Positions 1,440-9,959 of a DNA stretch of 35,000 nucleotides are shown here, one piece after another. Within the stretch, counting starts at the first letter, position 1, and the number at the start of each line of letters is the position of its first letter. The stretch lies in NCBI GenBank assembly GCA_019113985.1, contig DXGJ01000065.1, forward strand, positions 1 to 35,000, written 5' to 3'. The stretch is from Candidatus Levilactobacillus faecigallinarum (GTDB lineage Bacteria; Bacillota; Bacilli; Lactobacillales; Lactobacillaceae). The notes under the pieces are model-generated. The model saw only the letters and a program-made list of their open reading frames with translations. It made no database searches and was not told the origin of the DNA. The position numbers were made by a program, and so were the translations under genes.

Positions 1440-1701
1440 CTAGGCGGCGTCCGTTACGGTTACCGCAGTCGTTGCCGTCTTATCACCCGCCGTAACGGTG
1501 ACCGTGGCACTACCGGCCTTTACACCAGTAATGGTCCCATCAGCCGTGACAGTGGCAATCGTGTCATCATCGATGCTGTATGTCACCGTCTTGTCGGTTG
1601 CATCGGCAGGGACCACCGTGGCGGTCACCTTAACGGTCTTGCCCACCTCAACAGATGCCGTCGCTTGGTCCAGTGTTACGCTGGTAACCTCAATCTTGCT
1701 T
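1440..1701 (-). CDS. Ig-like (BIG2) extension of the major tail protein, reached by +1 frameshift
   Basis: The frame offset from the major tail gene encodes a textbook bacterial Ig-like group 2 domain: KIEVTSVTLDQATASVEVG, then a VPADATDKTVTYS segment and a GTITGVKAGSATVTVTAG segment, about 85 residues in all. It has no start codon or ribosome site near the beginning of the domain. It overlaps the end of the tail gene, so it is best read as a C-terminal extension made on a minority of tail subunits (about 253 residues for the fusion). Ig-like domains added by frameshifting to phage tail and capsid proteins are established; they decorate the virion surface and may bind cell-wall sugars weakly. 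Confidence 0.8.
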
Positions 1702-2205
1702 GGGGCTACTACTCGCCGCACCGGCAGCGGGTGAATCCCCGAAGTCAGGCCCGTCGGAAACAACAACGGTAATGGTGTAAGTAATCCCACCGTTAACGGC
1801 CGCTTCACCCATTTGAATGGAGAAGGACCCGGTAAAGGTCACCTGCATGCCATCGGCGTAAGTTACCCGCCAGTTGTATTGCTTCCGGTCCCCAGACTTG
1901 CCGTGAATGACGTTCCAGGACGGCCCCTTGTACTGCACGGAGAATGCCAGGGAACTAGCAGCATCAATCCCAGCAATTTGCTTGACCCGGGTATCTGACA
2001 GCGTGGTCACGTCGATATCTTGGGGTGCCCCACCTAACGCGGGAATCGTCTTAACGTCGGCGACCACCGTGTAGTCTGTCCCACCAGGTTCCGCATACTC
2101 CAGCTTGGTCCCCGTAGCGGCCAGTCCCTTGGATGAATCAACGTTGGCTGCCGTATCGGCGAAACGTTGCAGGTTCAACCGGTCAGAATTCAATTCTAAA
2201 CTCAT
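1690..2205 (-). CDS. Major tail (tube) protein
   Basis: The 171-residue protein starts at an ATG preceded by AGGAGGAAATGAA. It has the composition and segment order of siphophage tube proteins (a TTLSDTRVKQIAG segment, then GPSWNVIHGKSGDRKQYNWR and a GGITYTITVVVSDGPDF C-terminal strand). It follows the tail terminator gene and precedes the chaperones. The N-terminus carries RLNLQRFAD, the same LQRFA motif found in the scaffold and capsid proteins, so it may be trimmed after Phe15. Its C-terminus ends AAGAASSSPKQD, a flexible linker in which the +1 frameshift site lies. Confidence 0.85.
   Translation of the reverse strand: MSLELNSDRLNLQRFADTAANVDSSKGLAATGTKLEYAEPGGTDYTVVADVKTIPALGGAPQDIDVTTLSDTRVKQIAGIDAASSLAFSVQYKGPSWNVIHGKSGDRKQYNWRVTYADGMQVTFTGSFSIQMGEAAVNGGITYTITVVVSDGPDFGDSPAAGAASSSPKQD
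1699..1704 (-). promoter_or_regulatory. Candidate +1 frameshift site CCC AAG in major tail gene
   Basis: The tail frame reads AGC CCC AAG CAA GAT TGA. A +1 slip of the proline tRNA from CCC to CCA continues as AGC AAG ATT GAG GTT, joining SSSP to SKIEVTSV of the Ig-like domain. A +1 slip on CCC has been described in Listeria phage PSA structural genes. The exact slip codon here is inferred. Confidence 0.6.
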
Positions 2206-3791: not shown

Positions 3792-4856
3792 CTAGGCTAA
3801 CTTGATTGGCTTTGCTTGGAATACTTCATTGGCACCAGGGAAACTTGGCAGAGCCACAGCAGAAGCCTTTTCCCAAACACCCACAGGGTCTTCCCCTGCG
3901 CTGTAGACCTTGGCAAACACATTGCCAATGGACTGCTTTTGAACGGCAGGGTCATTCAGGCCGGTAACCTCGTCAGGGGTTGGGCCAAAGACCTTTTCAC
4001 CCGGCGTGTCGTCCGACATGATGACAAAGGCGTCCTCTGGGAAGTAACGGTGGGAAACCAGCGTGTTGCCGACCTGTTCGTTGTACTTATCGTCGTACGT
4101 CCGAATGATTGGCAACCCTTGTGCCTGCATGAAGGCATCGAAGTCACCTTGACCCAGCGCCCGCGTTGAAGTCCCGTAGACTGCCTTTAAAACGCTGGCG
4201 TTCCGCGTCAACAGTCGGTAAATCTTCTTGGACGTCAGAACGCGTGTTCCGGTAACGTCCATAGCATCGGCCCAGTCAGTGATGTCCTTGATTGGGTCCG
4301 CGCTATCGTTATCCCAAGTCGTACCACTCTTTCCCGTTAAATCAGCCTTGTGTGCGGATGGTACCTGGTAATCGAAGGTCGCCTTTTGCTTGGTGTCAGG
4401 GTCAACGACTTCAACAGTCCCAGTTGCTAGGGCGTCCATTGACATCTTTTCAACTTGCGCCAAAACGCCTTGCACCAGTGAGTCGATATCGTCGAATACC
4501 CGGCTTTGCATGTAATTTGCTTCGGCCGCGTTCCGGGGACTTTGAAGTGCAATCAAGTCTTCTTCCTTCAATTGCATCTTCCGCTTGATCAAAGCCAATT
4601 CGAGGGAAAGCTTGTCAGCTTGCCGACTACCAATCTCGGCTTCCGTATCAAACGCGGAAACATGCGCAATGACTGGAATTCGATTACCAGCATAGATTTG
4701 GTCCAGCTTTAACGACTGGGTCCGTCGTGCCGGGAAAAGCGCATCCCCCATAAATGGCTTGTATTGCCGATTTCGCACGTAATCCAATACATCTGGTTGA
4801 CTAAACAGTTCCGCAATCGAGGCGAAACGTTGTAAATTAATAAATTGTCCTCGCAT
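3792..4856 (-). CDS. Major capsid protein (phage lambda gpE family)
   Basis: 354 residues, the normal length for the lambda gpE-type capsid family. Family-like segments visible include GDALFPARRTQSLKLDQI, an IKRKMQLKEEDLIAL helix and the late YSAGEDPVGVWEKAS region. It follows the scaffold and a small head protein. Its N-terminus is MRGQFINLQRFAS, carrying the LQRFA motif (codons at 4821-4835); cleavage after Phe11 would leave a 343-residue mature protein. The LQRFA codons are nearly identical in DNA to those of the scaffold and tail genes. Confidence 0.9.
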   Translation of the reverse strand: MRGQFINLQRFASIAELFSQPDVLDYVRNRQYKPFMGDALFPARRTQSLKLDQIYAGNRIPVIAHVSAFDTEAEIGSRQADKLSLELALIKRKMQLKEEDLIALQSPRNAAEANYMQSRVFDDIDSLVQGVLAQVEKMSMDALATGTVEVVDPDTKQKATFDYQVPSAHKADLTGKSGTTWDNDSADPIKDITDWADAMDVTGTRVLTSKKIYRLLTRNASVLKAVYGTSTRALGQGDFDAFMQAQGLPIIRTYDDKYNEQVGNTLVSHRYFPEDAFVIMSDDTPGEKVFGPTPDEVTGLNDPAVQKQSIGNVFAKVYSAGEDPVGVWEKASAVALPSFPGANEVFQAKPIKLA

Positions 4857-5276: not shown

Positions 5277-5948
5277 CTAATTGATTGCCCAGGGGTTACT
5301 ACCCGCGGGCTTCTGAGCATCGTTACGCTTATCAGCGATTGTCTCGCCTGCTGACTTCTTGCCTGCGGCGGCACCCGCGGCGCCCGGCGTATTGGCAGAT
5401 TCAACAAGCTTCTTGTCAACGCCTTCTCTAACGGCGCCTTGATAGGCAGTCTTTAACGTCTGGTACAACGGGTCCAAGTCCTCTACCTTCTTGACGTTCA
5501 ATGACGCATCAGCAAAAACATCAGCCAAGGACGTTGGGAGACCATCGGCACTCAGGCGCGAGACAATCCCGGCCCGATTGAGCTTGATGTTCATGTCCTG
5601 TTCCTTTTGGTCAAGCTCCTTGGCCCGTTTGTCGTTGTCGAATGCCTGTTGCTCGGCTGGGGTCATCTTGTCATAGTCCTTTTGCTCGTGGGCTTCTTTC
5701 TCCCATTTAGCCTTGGCTTTCTCCAATGTTCCCGCAGTCTTCTTGTCGTACCAGCTATCTAAATCGGACTGGCTCTTAAAGACAATCGCGTTAGGATCCG
5801 TTTGCTGACTATTCGGATTGTCGGTACCTTGGCCGTCGCCCTGGGTATTGGTGTTTGTGTTTTCCGCACCAGTCCCCTGGCTGCCTTCACCGTCTCCATC
5901 GCCCTCGGCAAAACGTTGCAGGTCTAACTTCTCGCTAAAATTAAGCAT
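5277..5948 (-). CDS. Capsid scaffold protein (DUF4355-like)
   Basis: 223 residues from the ATG at 5948, preceded by GAGGAGGATACACA; the frame continues upstream to 6062 without a ribosome site. The layout is typical of Firmicute phage scaffolds: short N-terminus, an acidic Gly/Thr/Asn/Gln linker, a highly charged coiled coil (KAKAKWEKEAHEQKDYDKMT through DNDKRAKELDQKEQDMNIKL), then NRAGIVSRLSADGLPTSLAD and a basic C-terminus. The N-terminus MLNFSEKLDLQRFAEGD contains the LQRFA motif with the full L-x-L-Q-x-F-A pattern of ribosomal protein L27 (codons at 5907-5921). It would guide capsid assembly and leave before packaging. Confidence 0.85.
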   Translation of the reverse strand: MLNFSEKLDLQRFAEGDGDGEGSQGTGAENTNTNTQGDGQGTDNPNSQQTDPNAIVFKSQSDLDSWYDKKTAGTLEKAKAKWEKEAHEQKDYDKMTPAEQQAFDNDKRAKELDQKEQDMNIKLNRAGIVSRLSADGLPTSLADVFADASLNVKKVEDLDPLYQTLKTAYQGAVREGVDKKLVESANTPGAAGAAAGKKSAGETIADKRNDAQKPAGSNPWAIN

Positions 5949-6109
5949 TGTGTATCCTCCTCGGCCCACGCACGCTGATTCACTGCATGAAAAAAGCACC
6001 CCACACACGCCGAATGGCTCATGTACGATGCTCAGTTCGTGATTGCAGTAGTAGCAGCTCACGCACGCCTATTTAATTGGGTAGTTTTATGACTTGCCTG
6101 GGTCAAGCA

Positions 6110-6301
6110 TTAAACGCCTGCCAGGTACATTCCCAGCAGAATGACGGCCGCCCACGAGACAATCCCCGCGATACAGATTGCCGCAAATTGCTGGTAACGC
6201 TGGCGGTCGCCCAATAAATCTCTATCAAAAAGAGCCAGTAGCGAAATAATCACTACCAGCCCCATAATAATCTGAAATCCTATCACATTATCAGTCCTCA
6301 C
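6110..6301 (-). CDS. Small two-helix membrane protein
   Basis: 63 residues with two clear hydrophobic segments (FQIIMGLVVIISLLALF and AAICIAGIVSWAAVILLGMY) joined by a short polar loop. The first codon is a GTG overlapping the stop of the upstream gene; a second GTG at 6286 has a better site (TGAGG at nine bases) and may be the true start. It is the third gene in a row after the MuF head protein, so it may belong to the same accessory unit. No family recognised. Confidence 0.5.
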   Translation of the reverse strand: MRTDNVIGFQIIMGLVVIISLLALFDRDLLGDRQRYQQFAAICIAGIVSWAAVILLGMYLAGV

Positions 6302-6573
6302 ATCGCAATGACTTTAATCTCTCGCCATTGGTCACGAATCTTCTTGCCATCAATTACATAGTCGAGAATCTCGTCTGGATCATCGTTTGATTTAAACTGG
6401 TGATCGAAGTCACCATTATCTTTTGAGATAATACTGTTACCTTTGTCGTCCGAACCGATATACCACTCAACACCATTGATTTTAATCTGGACTTCCATGT
6501 GAACATCCAATGCGAAACGTAGTTCTTCAAGTGATGTTAGTCGGTCTGAATCATGTTCATTTACGTTTCTCAT
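6298..6573 (-). CDS. Small acidic protein, candidate immunity protein for the MuF toxin domain
   Basis: 91 residues starting MRNVNEHDSDRLTSLEELRF, with AAAGGATTG before the ATG and an overlap with the end of the MuF gene. It is acidic and looks like a small alpha/beta fold: a helix (SLEELRFALDVHM), a strand pair (VQIKINGVEWYIGSDDKG) and a C-terminal helix ending KIRDQWREIKVIAM. Size, acidity and position directly after a toxin-like C-terminus are what immunity proteins of polymorphic toxins show. The pairing is inferred from position; the fold and function are not established. Confidence 0.6.
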   Translation of the reverse strand: MRNVNEHDSDRLTSLEELRFALDVHMEVQIKINGVEWYIGSDDKGNSIISKDNGDFDHQFKSNDDPDEILDYVIDGKKIRDQWREIKVIAM

Positions 6574-8245
6574 CAATATTCACAATCCTTTCCGCCTTGT
6601 TCAATGGCCGATATGGGCTTTCACGTACAAATGTTTTCTTACCATCGGCTCGCTCTTGAGTCGTCCACGTATGGGCATGCGGGGCCAACGGATGTAATTT
6701 GCTATTTCCATGATGGGTAAAATCAATATCCAATCGTGGCTTTCCTGTAACTCCATAATAGCGGCGCTCAATCAATTGACCATCAATCATACGATCAAAT
6801 GTCGAATTAGGATAGCTAACAAAGGGAACCTTGTGGGCTGCCTCACTGATGTGATTCTTTAAGGCCTCACGCTCCGCGTTAACCTCTCGAACAGTTCCAA
6901 CTAACGCGTGGTACCCTTCAATATCATTATACTTCATCGCCTGAAACTTATCGAAAGATTCGGGCCCATTATCTACACCTAAAACATCCTGGTAACGCCG
7001 ATACTGCTTCAGGTCTTGGGAAGCATTCTGGGACTTGGTACGCGTTGCCGTTATTGCATCTCGGCCATGCTTCTTAATCAACAACTGCTCCCAATCCCGG
7101 TAAGTCGCATCGGCCGGTATCTTAATGGCCTTGTTGGCGATTGGGTCCCGCGCTGTCCGATAGCCGCCGCGCTTAGTCCTAGTAAAGTGTGCCACCGCAA
7201 TGGTCCGGCAATATGGATGAAATGGTGGGTAGGTTCCAGCAAAGCCCGCACACTTGGCGTCTTTCACGGCATACACACGGCCGTCATGCTTACGACAGAA
7301 CTCAGACGTACGGAAATCCAATACCGCGAGTAGCGAATACTTCTCGGTGCCGTGCTCCTGCCAGCCATGTAGCTTAGCTTGCCCGGCAAAGTAGGCTGAC
7401 TCCGTACGAATCAAGCGCCGGGCATCGCTGGCACTGCTGCCAAACTGTTTCATGATGGCCTGCCGCATGTCGCGTTCACTCATACCGCTCATTTGCTTGG
7501 CGGCAAAGAGTTGTTGCAACGAAGCGGCCAGCTTGTCGGTATCGTGCCAGATGCTCTGTGAATAATTCTTGCCGTACCAGGGCGTCTTTAACATCTGGTC
7601 CACATAATCGGTACTCAGCTCTTTAAAGTGCGTGACCGACTTGTCGTGAGCCACATCGAGACGTTGTACAACATCCCCCGTCTTAGGTTCAACAAAGTTA
7701 ATGACCTCGTGTTTATCGGTGTCGACCGTCGGGACCGTGTCGCCTTGGTACACGCCAAAGTCCCGTTGAGTCCGGCCAATAATTGATTCGGTCGCCGCAC
7801 GATTATAGGCGTCCTGCATGGCATCAATGTAATACGGCTTGGATTCAGTCAGTTCAACGTCAGCTAATCGCTTAGCCACCACGTAGGACTTTGCCCGGAG
7901 TAGCTCCAGCTGGGTAATGCGGTGTTTTACCGCCAGCCCATCAAGATACGTCTGCAGTTGCTTCTTAACCTGCTTGTTCTGGGTCGACTTAATCAAGGCG
8001 TGCAGCTGGGCCAATTGTGCGGGCGTCACCTGGGTATTGAGAATCCTCGCGACCTCAGCCGGCGTTAGCCCGGACTTGTCGAGATATCGCTTGTACACTT
8101 TATCAGCTTCACCAACTAGGTACTGCTGAGCTTGCATGTAAGCCCGTATCAGTACGTCAATATGGTCAGACCCCTTATCATATGTTTGTTGCTCTAGCCA
8201 CAGTGCGCGGCGCTCCCAGTAGGTCAGCTTATCCTTGTCCGCCAT
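6557..8245 (-). CDS. MuF minor head protein with C-terminal toxin-like extension
   Basis: 562 residues. Residues 1-270 are helical; the Mu gpF/SPP1 gp7 domain follows, with RTESAYFAGQAKLHGW from Arg280 and the closing Cys/His cluster (CRKHDGRVY, then PPFHPYCRT with Cys346). Ordinary minor head proteins end near here. This one continues for about 200 residues, ending in a distinct charged domain with LDIDFTHHG (Asp506, Asp508, His511, His512), LHP (His518) and HAHTW (His523, His525). MuF proteins fused to variable toxin domains are a described polymorphic-toxin class of temperate phages. Packaging it in the head would allow delivery with phage DNA. The toxin activity here is inferred. The start overlaps the stop of the Prp gene. 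Confidence 0.82.
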   Translation of the reverse strand: MADKDKLTYWERRALWLEQQTYDKGSDHIDVLIRAYMQAQQYLVGEADKVYKRYLDKSGLTPAEVARILNTQVTPAQLAQLHALIKSTQNKQVKKQLQTYLDGLAVKHRITQLELLRAKSYVVAKRLADVELTESKPYYIDAMQDAYNRAATESIIGRTQRDFGVYQGDTVPTVDTDKHEVINFVEPKTGDVVQRLDVAHDKSVTHFKELSTDYVDQMLKTPWYGKNYSQSIWHDTDKLAASLQQLFAAKQMSGMSERDMRQAIMKQFGSSASDARRLIRTESAYFAGQAKLHGWQEHGTEKYSLLAVLDFRTSEFCRKHDGRVYAVKDAKCAGFAGTYPPFHPYCRTIAVAHFTRTKRGGYRTARDPIANKAIKIPADATYRDWEQLLIKKHGRDAITATRTKSQNASQDLKQYRRYQDVLGVDNGPESFDKFQAMKYNDIEGYHALVGTVREVNAEREALKNHISEAAHKVPFVSYPNSTFDRMIDGQLIERRYYGVTGKPRLDIDFTHHGNSKLHPLAPHAHTWTTQERADGKKTFVRESPYRPLNKAERIVNIDEKRK

Positions 8246-8543
8246 TAGCGTTCACCGCTTCAAAGCTGACGTTCTTAGGGTATTGCTTGGCTAACTGTTT
8301 AATCATGATTTCAAACGAATTAACCATTCTAAAATCACCGTTATCCAGTAACGTTGCCTGTAACTTAGCGGCATTCCCGTCGTCATTCGTCTGTTGCTTT
8401 ACCAAAGAGACTTGCAATTGACTAAAAAGCGTGGAAACGGCGGCACAAACAATATCATGCCCAAACGGCGCTTCTAACGCATGGCCTTCAATTGTGATTT
8501 CAACGCTATTCGTGCTGAGGTTTGCCATCGTTACCTTGATCAT
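8229..8543 (-). CDS. prp: Prp-like cysteine protease (YsxB family), phage-encoded
   Basis: About 104 residues from the ATG at 8543, preceded by AGGAGGGATTCCGCG. The family's two catalytic landmarks are present: EGHA (His21) and DIVCAAVS (Cys33), at nearly the same positions as His22/Cys34 of Staphylococcus aureus Prp. Host Prp removes the N-terminal extension of ribosomal protein L27 at an L-Q-F-F-A motif and, in phage 80alpha, cuts the same type of motif in scaffold and capsid proteins. Here the gene sits between portal and MuF genes, and the scaffold, capsid and major tail proteins all carry LQRFA near their starts. It is therefore probably the phage's own maturation protease. Confidence 0.85.
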   Translation of the reverse strand: MIKVTMANLSTNSVEITIEGHALEAPFGHDIVCAAVSTLFSQLQVSLVKQQTNDDGNAAKLQATLLDNGDFRMVNSFEIMIKQLAKQYPKNVSFEAVNANGGQG

Positions 8544-9945
8544 CGCGGAATCCCTCCTGTTCGTCATTGTCGGTGTCTGGTACTTGTGGCTCGCCGCCCA
8601 TCGCTTCGCGTTGCGTCTTAACCTGCTCCGCGGTCTGTTCCTTCATGAGCGCGTCCAACTTCTTCGGGTCGTAATCATCAGGCAACCAGCCATAACTAAT
8701 CAGCCGTGGGATAATTCCATCGGCGTTCTTGATGTTGCTGATAACGTCGCTCATATTGATTGGAATGTTCAATGTGAATTGAACCTTAACGTCGTTGATA
8801 TCCACTGATTCAGCCTTAATCCGCATCATGTTTTGCAACAACTTTAGGCGGCGTCGAATCCCCTTCTTAAAATACTGCTCCTTAGATGACACTAAGTTAA
8901 GCAAGCCAAACAGCTTATACTTCATGGCCTCACCGGAAACATTGCCAGCAAAATCGCGATCGTTCATGTTGGGGACATTACTCATTTCATGGATATCATT
9001 GCTGATTGAGTCAGACAAGGTCTGCTGCTGACTTTCATCGAGCGTCTTGGTTAACCATTCAATTGAAGTACCCTCTGTCTTAGGGCTAAGACCATCAAGC
9101 ATCTTGTTCTTAGACAGATTACCCGCAATCTCCGTACCGTAACCCAATAGAATTGCATCAACGAAGTTGTCCTTGTCGGTAATCCGGTCAGACTGTAGGT
9201 TGTTGTAAGCATCGATCTGTGAGATGAGTTGCTCATAGTCGCCCTGCTCCTGCTTGTTATTGAGAATCTCGTTAATTGGTTCCTGACCCCAATACTGTGG
9301 CGTAATTTTCGGATACCCAATTGCAAAGTTACCCTGGTCCAGATGGTCACCGCGCATTGTCCGATACTGGATGAGTTTATTCTGCGTGTACACGGAAATC
9401 ATCGAGCCATTACGTTCACCGGCTAAGTTGAACTTAGGCACCACGTAAACGCCAAACAGCACGTTCTCGTCCTCACTATCATCAGTCACTACGAAGGTGT
9501 TACGCGGGTCGAGCGTTGCAATATGTTCAACGGTCGTTTCGCTATCCACCGCCGTTAAGTACAGCATTTCGTACGCCACACCGTAACACGACAAATCATG
9601 TTCTATCTCCGTATCGTGTGCTGAGATATCCATGTGATTAAGTACGTCCGTCAATTGGGAAATGTTGTCTCCGTCTTGCGTCACGTAGGTAATGGGCCGC
9701 CCGGTCATCATGCCGACAATCATATCGGTGATGTACTTGGCATGATTGACCATGATGTGTGTGTCTTTGGCCTGCGGATTGTTGGTCATGGTGCGCTTCA
9801 TAATTTCGTGTTTGCCTAGGTAATAGTCCCTTAAGTGATTGAGCCGCTGTACTCGATTAGACTGTAAGTCCAGCAGGTTGTTCAGCAGCTCCAAGGGTGG
9901 GTTATTTGGATTGTCTAATAATGTTGCATCAATTTTGAATGCCAT
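8506..9945 (-). CDS. Portal protein (SPP1 gp6-like)
   Basis: 479 residues from the ATG at 9945; GAAAGGGGG lies seven bases before it, whereas a nearer ATG at 9951 abuts the site. Family features include the N-terminal DYYLGKHEIMKR segment, MVNHAKYITDMIVGMMTGRP, the stem region LNNKQEQGDYEQLISQID and LFGLLNLVSSKEQYFKKGI. The last 60 residues are acidic and Gln-rich. It forms the packaging and ejection channel and follows the terminase genes directly. Confidence 0.9.
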   Translation of the reverse strand: MAFKIDATLLDNPNNPPLELLNNLLDLQSNRVQRLNHLRDYYLGKHEIMKRTMTNNPQAKDTHIMVNHAKYITDMIVGMMTGRPITYVTQDGDNISQLTDVLNHMDISAHDTEIEHDLSCYGVAYEMLYLTAVDSETTVEHIATLDPRNTFVVTDDSEDENVLFGVYVVPKFNLAGERNGSMISVYTQNKLIQYRTMRGDHLDQGNFAIGYPKITPQYWGQEPINEILNNKQEQGDYEQLISQIDAYNNLQSDRITDKDNFVDAILLGYGTEIAGNLSKNKMLDGLSPKTEGTSIEWLTKTLDESQQQTLSDSISNDIHEMSNVPNMNDRDFAGNVSGEAMKYKLFGLLNLVSSKEQYFKKGIRRRLKLLQNMMRIKAESVDINDVKVQFTLNIPINMSDVISNIKNADGIIPRLISYGWLPDDYDPKKLDALMKEQTAEQVKTQREAMGGEPQVPDTDNDEQEGFRDDQGNDGKPQHE

Positions 9946-9959
9946 TGTCATCCCCCTTT

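Follow-up and report, generated by a model that had tools for sequence, protein, structure and literature searches.

Phage heads are thought to mature with a protease of the phage's own, as in the HK97 and T4 types, or with a host ribosome protease, as in 80alpha. The locus analyzed here raises the question of what a relative of Prp, a host ribosome protease, does within a phage head cluster. The window, i.e. the whole stretch of 35,000 nucleotides, is a prophage region in a host assembly of 1.76 Mb (72% complete). Its − strand carries, in this order, terminase, portal, Prp, minor head, scaffold, small head protein, capsid, connectors, tail tube, DUF6096 and tape measure. Terminase, portal, Prp, minor head, scaffold, capsid, tail tube and DUF6096 were assigned by Pfam, and the remaining cluster genes were named from position. 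The relevant features are listed below, with | marking a predicted cut.

8506..9951, − strand: SPP1-type portal, directly upstream of prp (PF05133, E 8.6e-88)
8229..8543, − strand: Prp, cysteine protease of 104 residues, dyad His21/Cys33 (PF04327)
6557..8245, − strand: minor head protein, directly downstream of prp, without the motif (PF04233, Phage_Mu_F)
5277..5948, − strand: capsid scaffold, N-terminus MLNFSEKLDLQRF|AEG (PF14265, DUF4355/Gp46)
5907..5921, − strand: LQRFA site of the scaffold, predicted cut after Phe13
3792..4856, − strand: major capsid protein, N-terminus MRGQFINLQRF|ASI (PF03864, Phage_cap_E, E 2e-37)
4821..4835, − strand: LQRFA site of the capsid, predicted cut after Phe11
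1690..2205, − strand: tail-tube protein, N-terminus MSLELNSDRLNLQRF|ADT (PF08813, Phage_tail_3, E 7.4e-14)
2158..2172, − strand: LQRFA site of the tail tube, predicted cut after Phe15

The initial annotation had recognized a Prp-like protease with His21 and Cys33 in the head cluster, which was borne out by profile match and alignment. The gene lies between the portal and minor-head genes and overlaps the portal end. Its product matched PF04327 (Peptidase_Prp, MEROPS C108) with an E-value of 9.5e-15 and 55.1 bits, above the curated cut-off of 27, and matched phrog_4478 ('peptidase') in PHROG. Residues Gly20, His21, Asp30, Cys33 and Ser37 aligned with Gly21, His22, Asp31, Cys34 and Ser38 of S. 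aureus Prp (SaPrp), which are reported to be catalytic or essential (Hotinger et al. 2022, PMC9405229). The AlphaFold model (mean pLDDT 86.4) showed the strand and helix order given for the Prp family in that review (PMC9405229); residues 24-27 were of low confidence and sit in a loop that is flexible in SaPrp. Foldseek returned 14 matches with E ≤0.001, Prp-family entries throughout, including 2g0j, 1s12 and 7kld, the structure of S. aureus Prp in complex with a substrate mimic (7kld_B at E 9e-7). Judged by sequence and modelled fold, the protein is a Prp-family cysteine protease, predicted to cleave LQxF sites in front of Ala or Ser. The annotation 'peptidase' already exists for phage Prp genes, and the gene is thus not new as such. 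No ClpP- or herpes-type maturation protease was found among nine structural-cluster proteins (Pfam) or in 6298-6576.

A six-frame search of the window for LQRFA gave 3 occurrences, each at the N-terminus of a structural protein and within 15 residues of the start Met. This confirmed what had been noticed at the outset, namely the motif near the N-termini of scaffold, capsid and tail tube, with nearly identical codons (CTGCAACGTTTTGCC, TTACAACGTTTCGCC and CTGCAACGTTTCGCC; the capsid differs by TTA). The DNA pattern CTGCARMGNTTYGC was found twice in the window, in scaffold and tail tube, versus 0.02 expected; the capsid site falls outside this pattern because it uses TTA. The wider pattern LQ.[FLMYHW][AS] occurred 6 times in six frames, the additional instances being LQKLA, LQLHS and LQEFS. 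The scaffold start codon is preceded by AGGAGG. Note that the Pfam scan of the scaffold used 5277-5951, one codon longer than the gene. In the tail-tube model, residues 1-30 had pLDDT <50, within a model that was poor overall (mean pLDDT 57.9).

Separately, a Big_2 Ig-like domain (E 4.9e-19) was found at 1440-1808 (− strand), where, in a shifted frame, it overlaps the end of the tail-tube gene near AGCCCCAAG. It is probably part of a frameshifted long form of the tube protein, comparable to the joined tail-protein entry of phage BL3.

Leaders of this kind are known from Staphylococcus phage 80alpha, where LQxF|A is present on scaffold (LQFFA) and capsid (LQHFA) and the host's Prp, an enzyme of the same family, cuts both (Kizziah et al. 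2017, PMC5744158). Similarly, SaPI1 particles lack the first 14 capsid residues through Prp (PMC10541612). The window phage has the 80alpha-type trait of N-terminal LQxFA on scaffold and capsid, though not the host-only supply of protease: unlike 80alpha, in which no Prp match was found in the 18 kb head-tail region and the tail tube is without the motif, it encodes the protease and its tail tube bears the site. The major tail protein of Staphylococcus phage phi13 has LQHFA near its N-terminus, like the window tail tube. That motif has been noted in print, in a paper tying Prp to 'ribosomes, procapsids and tails' (PMC5744158); the initial proposal of a Prp site on a tail protein is thus not new in the form given. 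Unlike the window, the phi13 head region contains an annotated maturation protease and gave no Prp match; the motif was absent from the first 60 residues of the phi13 capsid. The capsid protease of phage Cp-1, reported to belong to Prp's clan (CR), is described as trimming ~40 residues from the capsid N-terminus (PMC9405229).

We consider it likely that the phage-owned Prp is dedicated to virions and trims scaffold, capsid and tail tube. The enzyme would cut between Phe and Ala in the N-terminal L-Q-x-F|A of the three proteins, removing the leader as each enters assembly. By analogy with L27 and 80alpha, the leader may serve as a removable assembly peptide on self-assembling proteins. An enzyme of its own would free the phage from the preference of the host Prp, here presumably paired with LQFF|S. 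Comparison with other phages and the fusions described below support the three proteins as likely substrates, as initially proposed, while the cleavage itself is a prediction.

Named phages with prp provided the closest parallels. In the Oenococcus phages phiS13 and Krappator149 and in Lactobacillus prophage Lj965, as in the window, prp follows the portal and LQRFA is present on scaffold, capsid and tail tube; the window Prp is 37% identical to that of Krappator149 and 33% to that of phiS13. Three others have sites on the same proteins (scaffold, capsid and tail tube, respectively): Latilactobacillus phage P1 (LQLFA, LQHFA, LQKFA), phiFL3A (LQFFA, LQIFA, LQLLA) and BL3 (LQLFA, LQKFA, LQKFA). 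TP712 (LQRFA on scaffold, LQRFS on capsid) and PLgT-1 (LQLFA and LQRFA) encode Prp and have tail tubes without the motif, which counts against trimming by the phage Prp. Among phages without a Prp match, PLE3 from L. casei carries a single site, LQFFA on its scaffold, and Javan74, phiSS12 and Javan253 showed no motif within 50 residues of the N-terminus in scaffold, capsid or tail tube. The tail tubes of these last three begin at the folded domain; note that they were picked since their tail-tube match omitted the N-terminus.

Across 19 tail tubes collected by similarity, the site varied at P2 and was invariant at its Gln, Phe and Ala. Of 118 relatives' genomes, 6 had this tail tube. In all five with LQRFA, the contig also encodes a second Prp, at 6-9 kb from the tail-tube gene (three of these genomes, the window's own included, belong to one genus), and the sole genome with a motif-less tail tube has a host-type Prp only. 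Tail-tube-like matches also occurred in open frames of 723-965 codons (G000:C50:8650-9069, G001:C2:45165-45584 and G007:C56:111414-111824), those in G001 and G007 ~11 kb from the tail-tube gene; these three were left out of the six-genome count.

We extended the comparison to Prp-encoding loci at large. Scans of IMG/VR contributed the best 80 of 355 and the best 80 of 316 relatives, and a scan of GTDB contigs the best 80 of at least 319. Pooled with other loci, and after removal of 100 loci with L27, these gave 290 loci among the matches listed, in which some contig-edge host copies may remain. Clustering at 90% identity yielded 137 Prp clusters, of which 88 had 8 kb of downstream sequence. 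In these 88 loci, again among the matches listed, the strict N-terminal LQxFA was found 174 times, and LNxFA, LKxFA and QLxFA 0 times each. The relaxed motif gave 198 occurrences versus 34 for LN, 14 for LK, 9 for LQxAF, 8 for LE, 6 for QL and 4 for the reversed form. Three motif-bearing ORFs were present in 36 loci, two in 28, one in 10, four in 6 and none in 8; one of the last (L229) is a fusion missed by our filter, and the other 7 count against the association. Motif-bearing capsids belonged to Phage_cap_E, Phage_capsid, Phage_capsid_3/4 and Gp13-like families, some of which may share one fold, and motif-bearing tail tubes to Phage_tail_3 and Phage_tail_2. This spread suggests that leaders were gained or kept in many lines with Prp at hand. 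One clade with Prp (L294, L378, L379, L428, L426, L251, L293 and L042) lacks the capsid site and keeps the site on other structural proteins.

Two further lines of analysis of the Prp sequences were abandoned. A specificity switch at the position of SaPrp Phe42, which stacks on the P1-P2 Phe (PMC9405229), failed as a rule. The window enzyme has Ser there, the Prps of other LQRFA phages have Glu, Thr, Asp or Gln, and the host Prp of the genus has Ile. Yet the LQLFA loci L147, L154 and L162 (GTDB contigs, which are probably host copies) also have Glu, as does L113 with its LQIFA and LQMFA sites, and Ile or Val was found alongside LQRFA in L511, L293 and L251. The rows compared still included host loci. 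A Prp tree was of no use for the direction of transfer, with host and phage labels changing 6 times versus 47 when shuffled and only 9 of 159 inner branches well supported.

Of the 137 Prp clusters, among the matches listed, 16 encode Prp and a scaffold-like protein as a single in-frame fusion that bears LQ[LM]FA where the two parts meet. In 15 of these the motif lies 5 to 26 residues past the Prp match with no intervening stop. The filter required an ATG within 30 codons before the motif, which these fifteen have, and internal initiation could thus also yield free scaffold. In the sixteenth, L229, the stretch from Prp to LQMFA contains neither ATG nor TTG and a single GTG; the nearest ATG is the Met codon inside the motif. 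A second copy of the motif is present in two fusions (L040 and L226). The downstream part matched phrog_13908 (function unknown) in L007 and L053, the two tested, and is scaffold-like in its make-up and in its place between Prp and capsid. As read from their sequences, the fusions independently support virion proteins as likely substrates of the phage Prp. In the literature searched, mostly non-subscription, we found no report that a phage-encoded Prp cleaves virion proteins or that Prp is fused to scaffold, nor any functional report on the Prps of phiS13, Krappator149 or Lj965; an earlier remark is possible in Wall et al. 2015, 2017. The parts seen of PMC8569155, PMC8987985 and PMC6893505 added nothing on phage-borne Prp.

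We next compared phages with and without Prp, counting 90% clusters and using the relaxed motif [LIVMF]Q.[FLIMYH][AS]. In a Prp-blind capsid scan, the capsid motif was present in 11 of 14 clusters with Prp and 0 of 13 without, the scaffold motif in 19/20 and 3/6, and the tail-tube motif in 16/16 and 0/1, respectively (3 capsid, 2 scaffold and 1 tail-tube clusters were set aside with no portal or Prp in reach). A Prp-blind tail-tube scan found motif and Prp together in 17 of 17 scorable clusters, with 1 set aside and no scorable cluster lacking Prp. Pooling with loci chosen by Prp gave 18/27 versus 0/13 for capsid E (Fisher p 8e-5), 28/29 versus 0/4 for the tail tube (p 1e-4) and 59/62 versus 11/18 for the scaffold (p 8e-4), all with kinship ignored. 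The remaining 9 of the 27 capsid-E clusters with Prp count against trimming by the phage enzyme. The 0/4 for tail tubes is biased, because three of the four were chosen for a match omitting the N-terminus. Loci L080 and L513 were scored as motif-less scaffolds in the pooled counts though the motif is present, and 3 capsid, 1 80alpha-type, 1 tail-tube and 3 scaffold clusters were set aside for want of a portal or Prp in reach. Against the association, Prp status changes only 3 times on the capsid tree and the association follows clades. An independent-pairs test of Prp against capsid motif was therefore dropped: the tree yields only 2-3 independent contrasts, with which significance cannot be reached.

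The 80alpha-type capsids behaved differently. Their scan gave a capsid motif in 1/1 clusters with Prp and 2/6 without, and a scaffold motif in 1/1 and 8/9; pooled, the capsid motif was present in 2/3 and 3/7. Clusters without Prp thus keep the scaffold motif, suggesting that here it goes with use of the host Prp. One such phage (L518, PQ554527.1), with LQMFA on an 80alpha-like capsid, LQFFS on the scaffold and no Prp match, is recorded from Acinetobacter baumannii. Acinetobacter is expected to lack Prp, which makes these sites odd there and tells against the proposal; the entry is perhaps a mislabelled Firmicutes prophage. Overall, the expected co-occurrence of prp and motif in related phages was seen for capsid, tail tube and scaffold, with the qualification that Prp-less phages with the motif exist. 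Motif-bearing phages that never carry prp and have no need of the host Prp had been named as grounds for abandoning the proposal; those found here without Prp (14 clusters) could use the host enzyme.

These phages bear on the strongest alternative, that the host Prp does the trimming, as in 80alpha, with the phage copy serving as a redundant booster or in the course of being lost. The host genome does encode a second Prp, between L21 and L27 and away from the head cluster. The Prp-less phages retaining the scaffold motif (the 11 of 18 clusters above) carry it as LQFFA, LQLFA or LQHFA, and LQHFA is a published site of the host Prp in 80alpha (PMC5744158, PMC9405229); the host enzyme might thus cut the window's sites as well. 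However, in phages of six genera (Oenococcus, Latilactobacillus, Lactobacillus, Enterococcus, Lactococcus and Brochothrix), prp follows the portal gene immediately or after no more than one small ORF or gap. The His and Cys are retained in those that were read, and in some phages Prp is fused to its presumed substrate. Moreover, P2 is Arg or Lys in 51 of 107 motif clusters of phages with Prp versus 0 of 14 without, where it is F in 7, H in 4, L in 2 and M in 1. Arg at P2 is not a phage-only mark: L27 of two MAGs (L144 and L191) carries LQRFA. L27 of L. johnsonii has LKLF'A in the review table (PMC9405229), as against the own Prp and three LQRFA sites of its prophage Lj965 (L510), a pair that constitutes a natural test of orthogonality. 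We therefore regard trimming by the host Prp as unlikely.

Less probable still is that the phages retain the LQxFA leader as a signal (for assembly, a chaperone or scaffold binding) rather than for proteolysis. Phage 80alpha remains viable with uncleavable capsid or scaffold, and it needs the scaffold leader but not the leader's removal (PMC5744158), as this reading would have it; both observations also fit a leader that first directs assembly and is later discarded. A pure signal is at odds with the invariant positions of the tail-tube site, which are P3 Gln, P1 Phe and P1' Ala, the residues read by the enzyme in the Prp structure (PMC9405229), with the presence of sites at Prp-scaffold joints, and with the absence of the whole leader from the three Prp-less streptococcal tail tubes, picked as noted for a match omitting the N-terminus.

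The phage enzyme had also been suggested to act on host L27. The phage and host Prps belong to the same Pfam family and have the catalytic residues in common, with 26% identity. They differ in position: the host ribosomal Prp is encoded beside L21 and L27 (rplU-prp-rpmA), L27 being its substrate in known cases, and the window copy, in the head cluster, lacks the rplU-rpmA position of an orthologue. The N-terminus of host L27, whose comparison had been proposed, is NLQFFSHHKGG, the type also given for L. rhamnosus L27 in the review table (PMC9405229), which makes Lacticaseibacillus the probable genus of the host. Its site, LQFF|S, is unlike the LQRFA sites of the phage and was found in 30 of the 30 L27 loci read in the window's genus (35 genomes searched). 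Action on L27 thus gained no support: the host encodes a Prp for itself, next to an L27 whose site is different. That the phage Prp mainly targets L27 and ribosomes in a take-over of translation, the virion motifs being host-Prp sites, is highly improbable despite its kinship with the L27 protease, given a gene in the head cluster, the unlike L27 site, and prp that accompanies virion motifs and in some phages is fused to scaffold.

A phage Prp that trims virion proteins has implications beyond the window. Tentatively, and with more reserve than for this phage, we suggest that Prp may be the maturation protease of many Firmicutes tailed phages, taking the same leader off scaffold, capsid and tube as a shared licensing step for head and tail, and that in gut phages a self-cleaving Prp-scaffold polyprotein may carry the protease into the procapsid. 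If true, the polyprotein would explain how the protease gains access to scaffold and capsid in those phages. Tail-tube trimming becomes a definite prediction. The finding also bears on whether Prp arose as a phage or a ribosomal enzyme, and it matters for drugs aimed at Prp, since the specificity of the phage enzymes may be different. In 80alpha, the purpose of a host ribosome protease in head maturation is described as unclear (PMC5744158). A phage-owned Prp with three likely substrates, in some phages fused to scaffold, would offer a compact system for probing what the cut is for.
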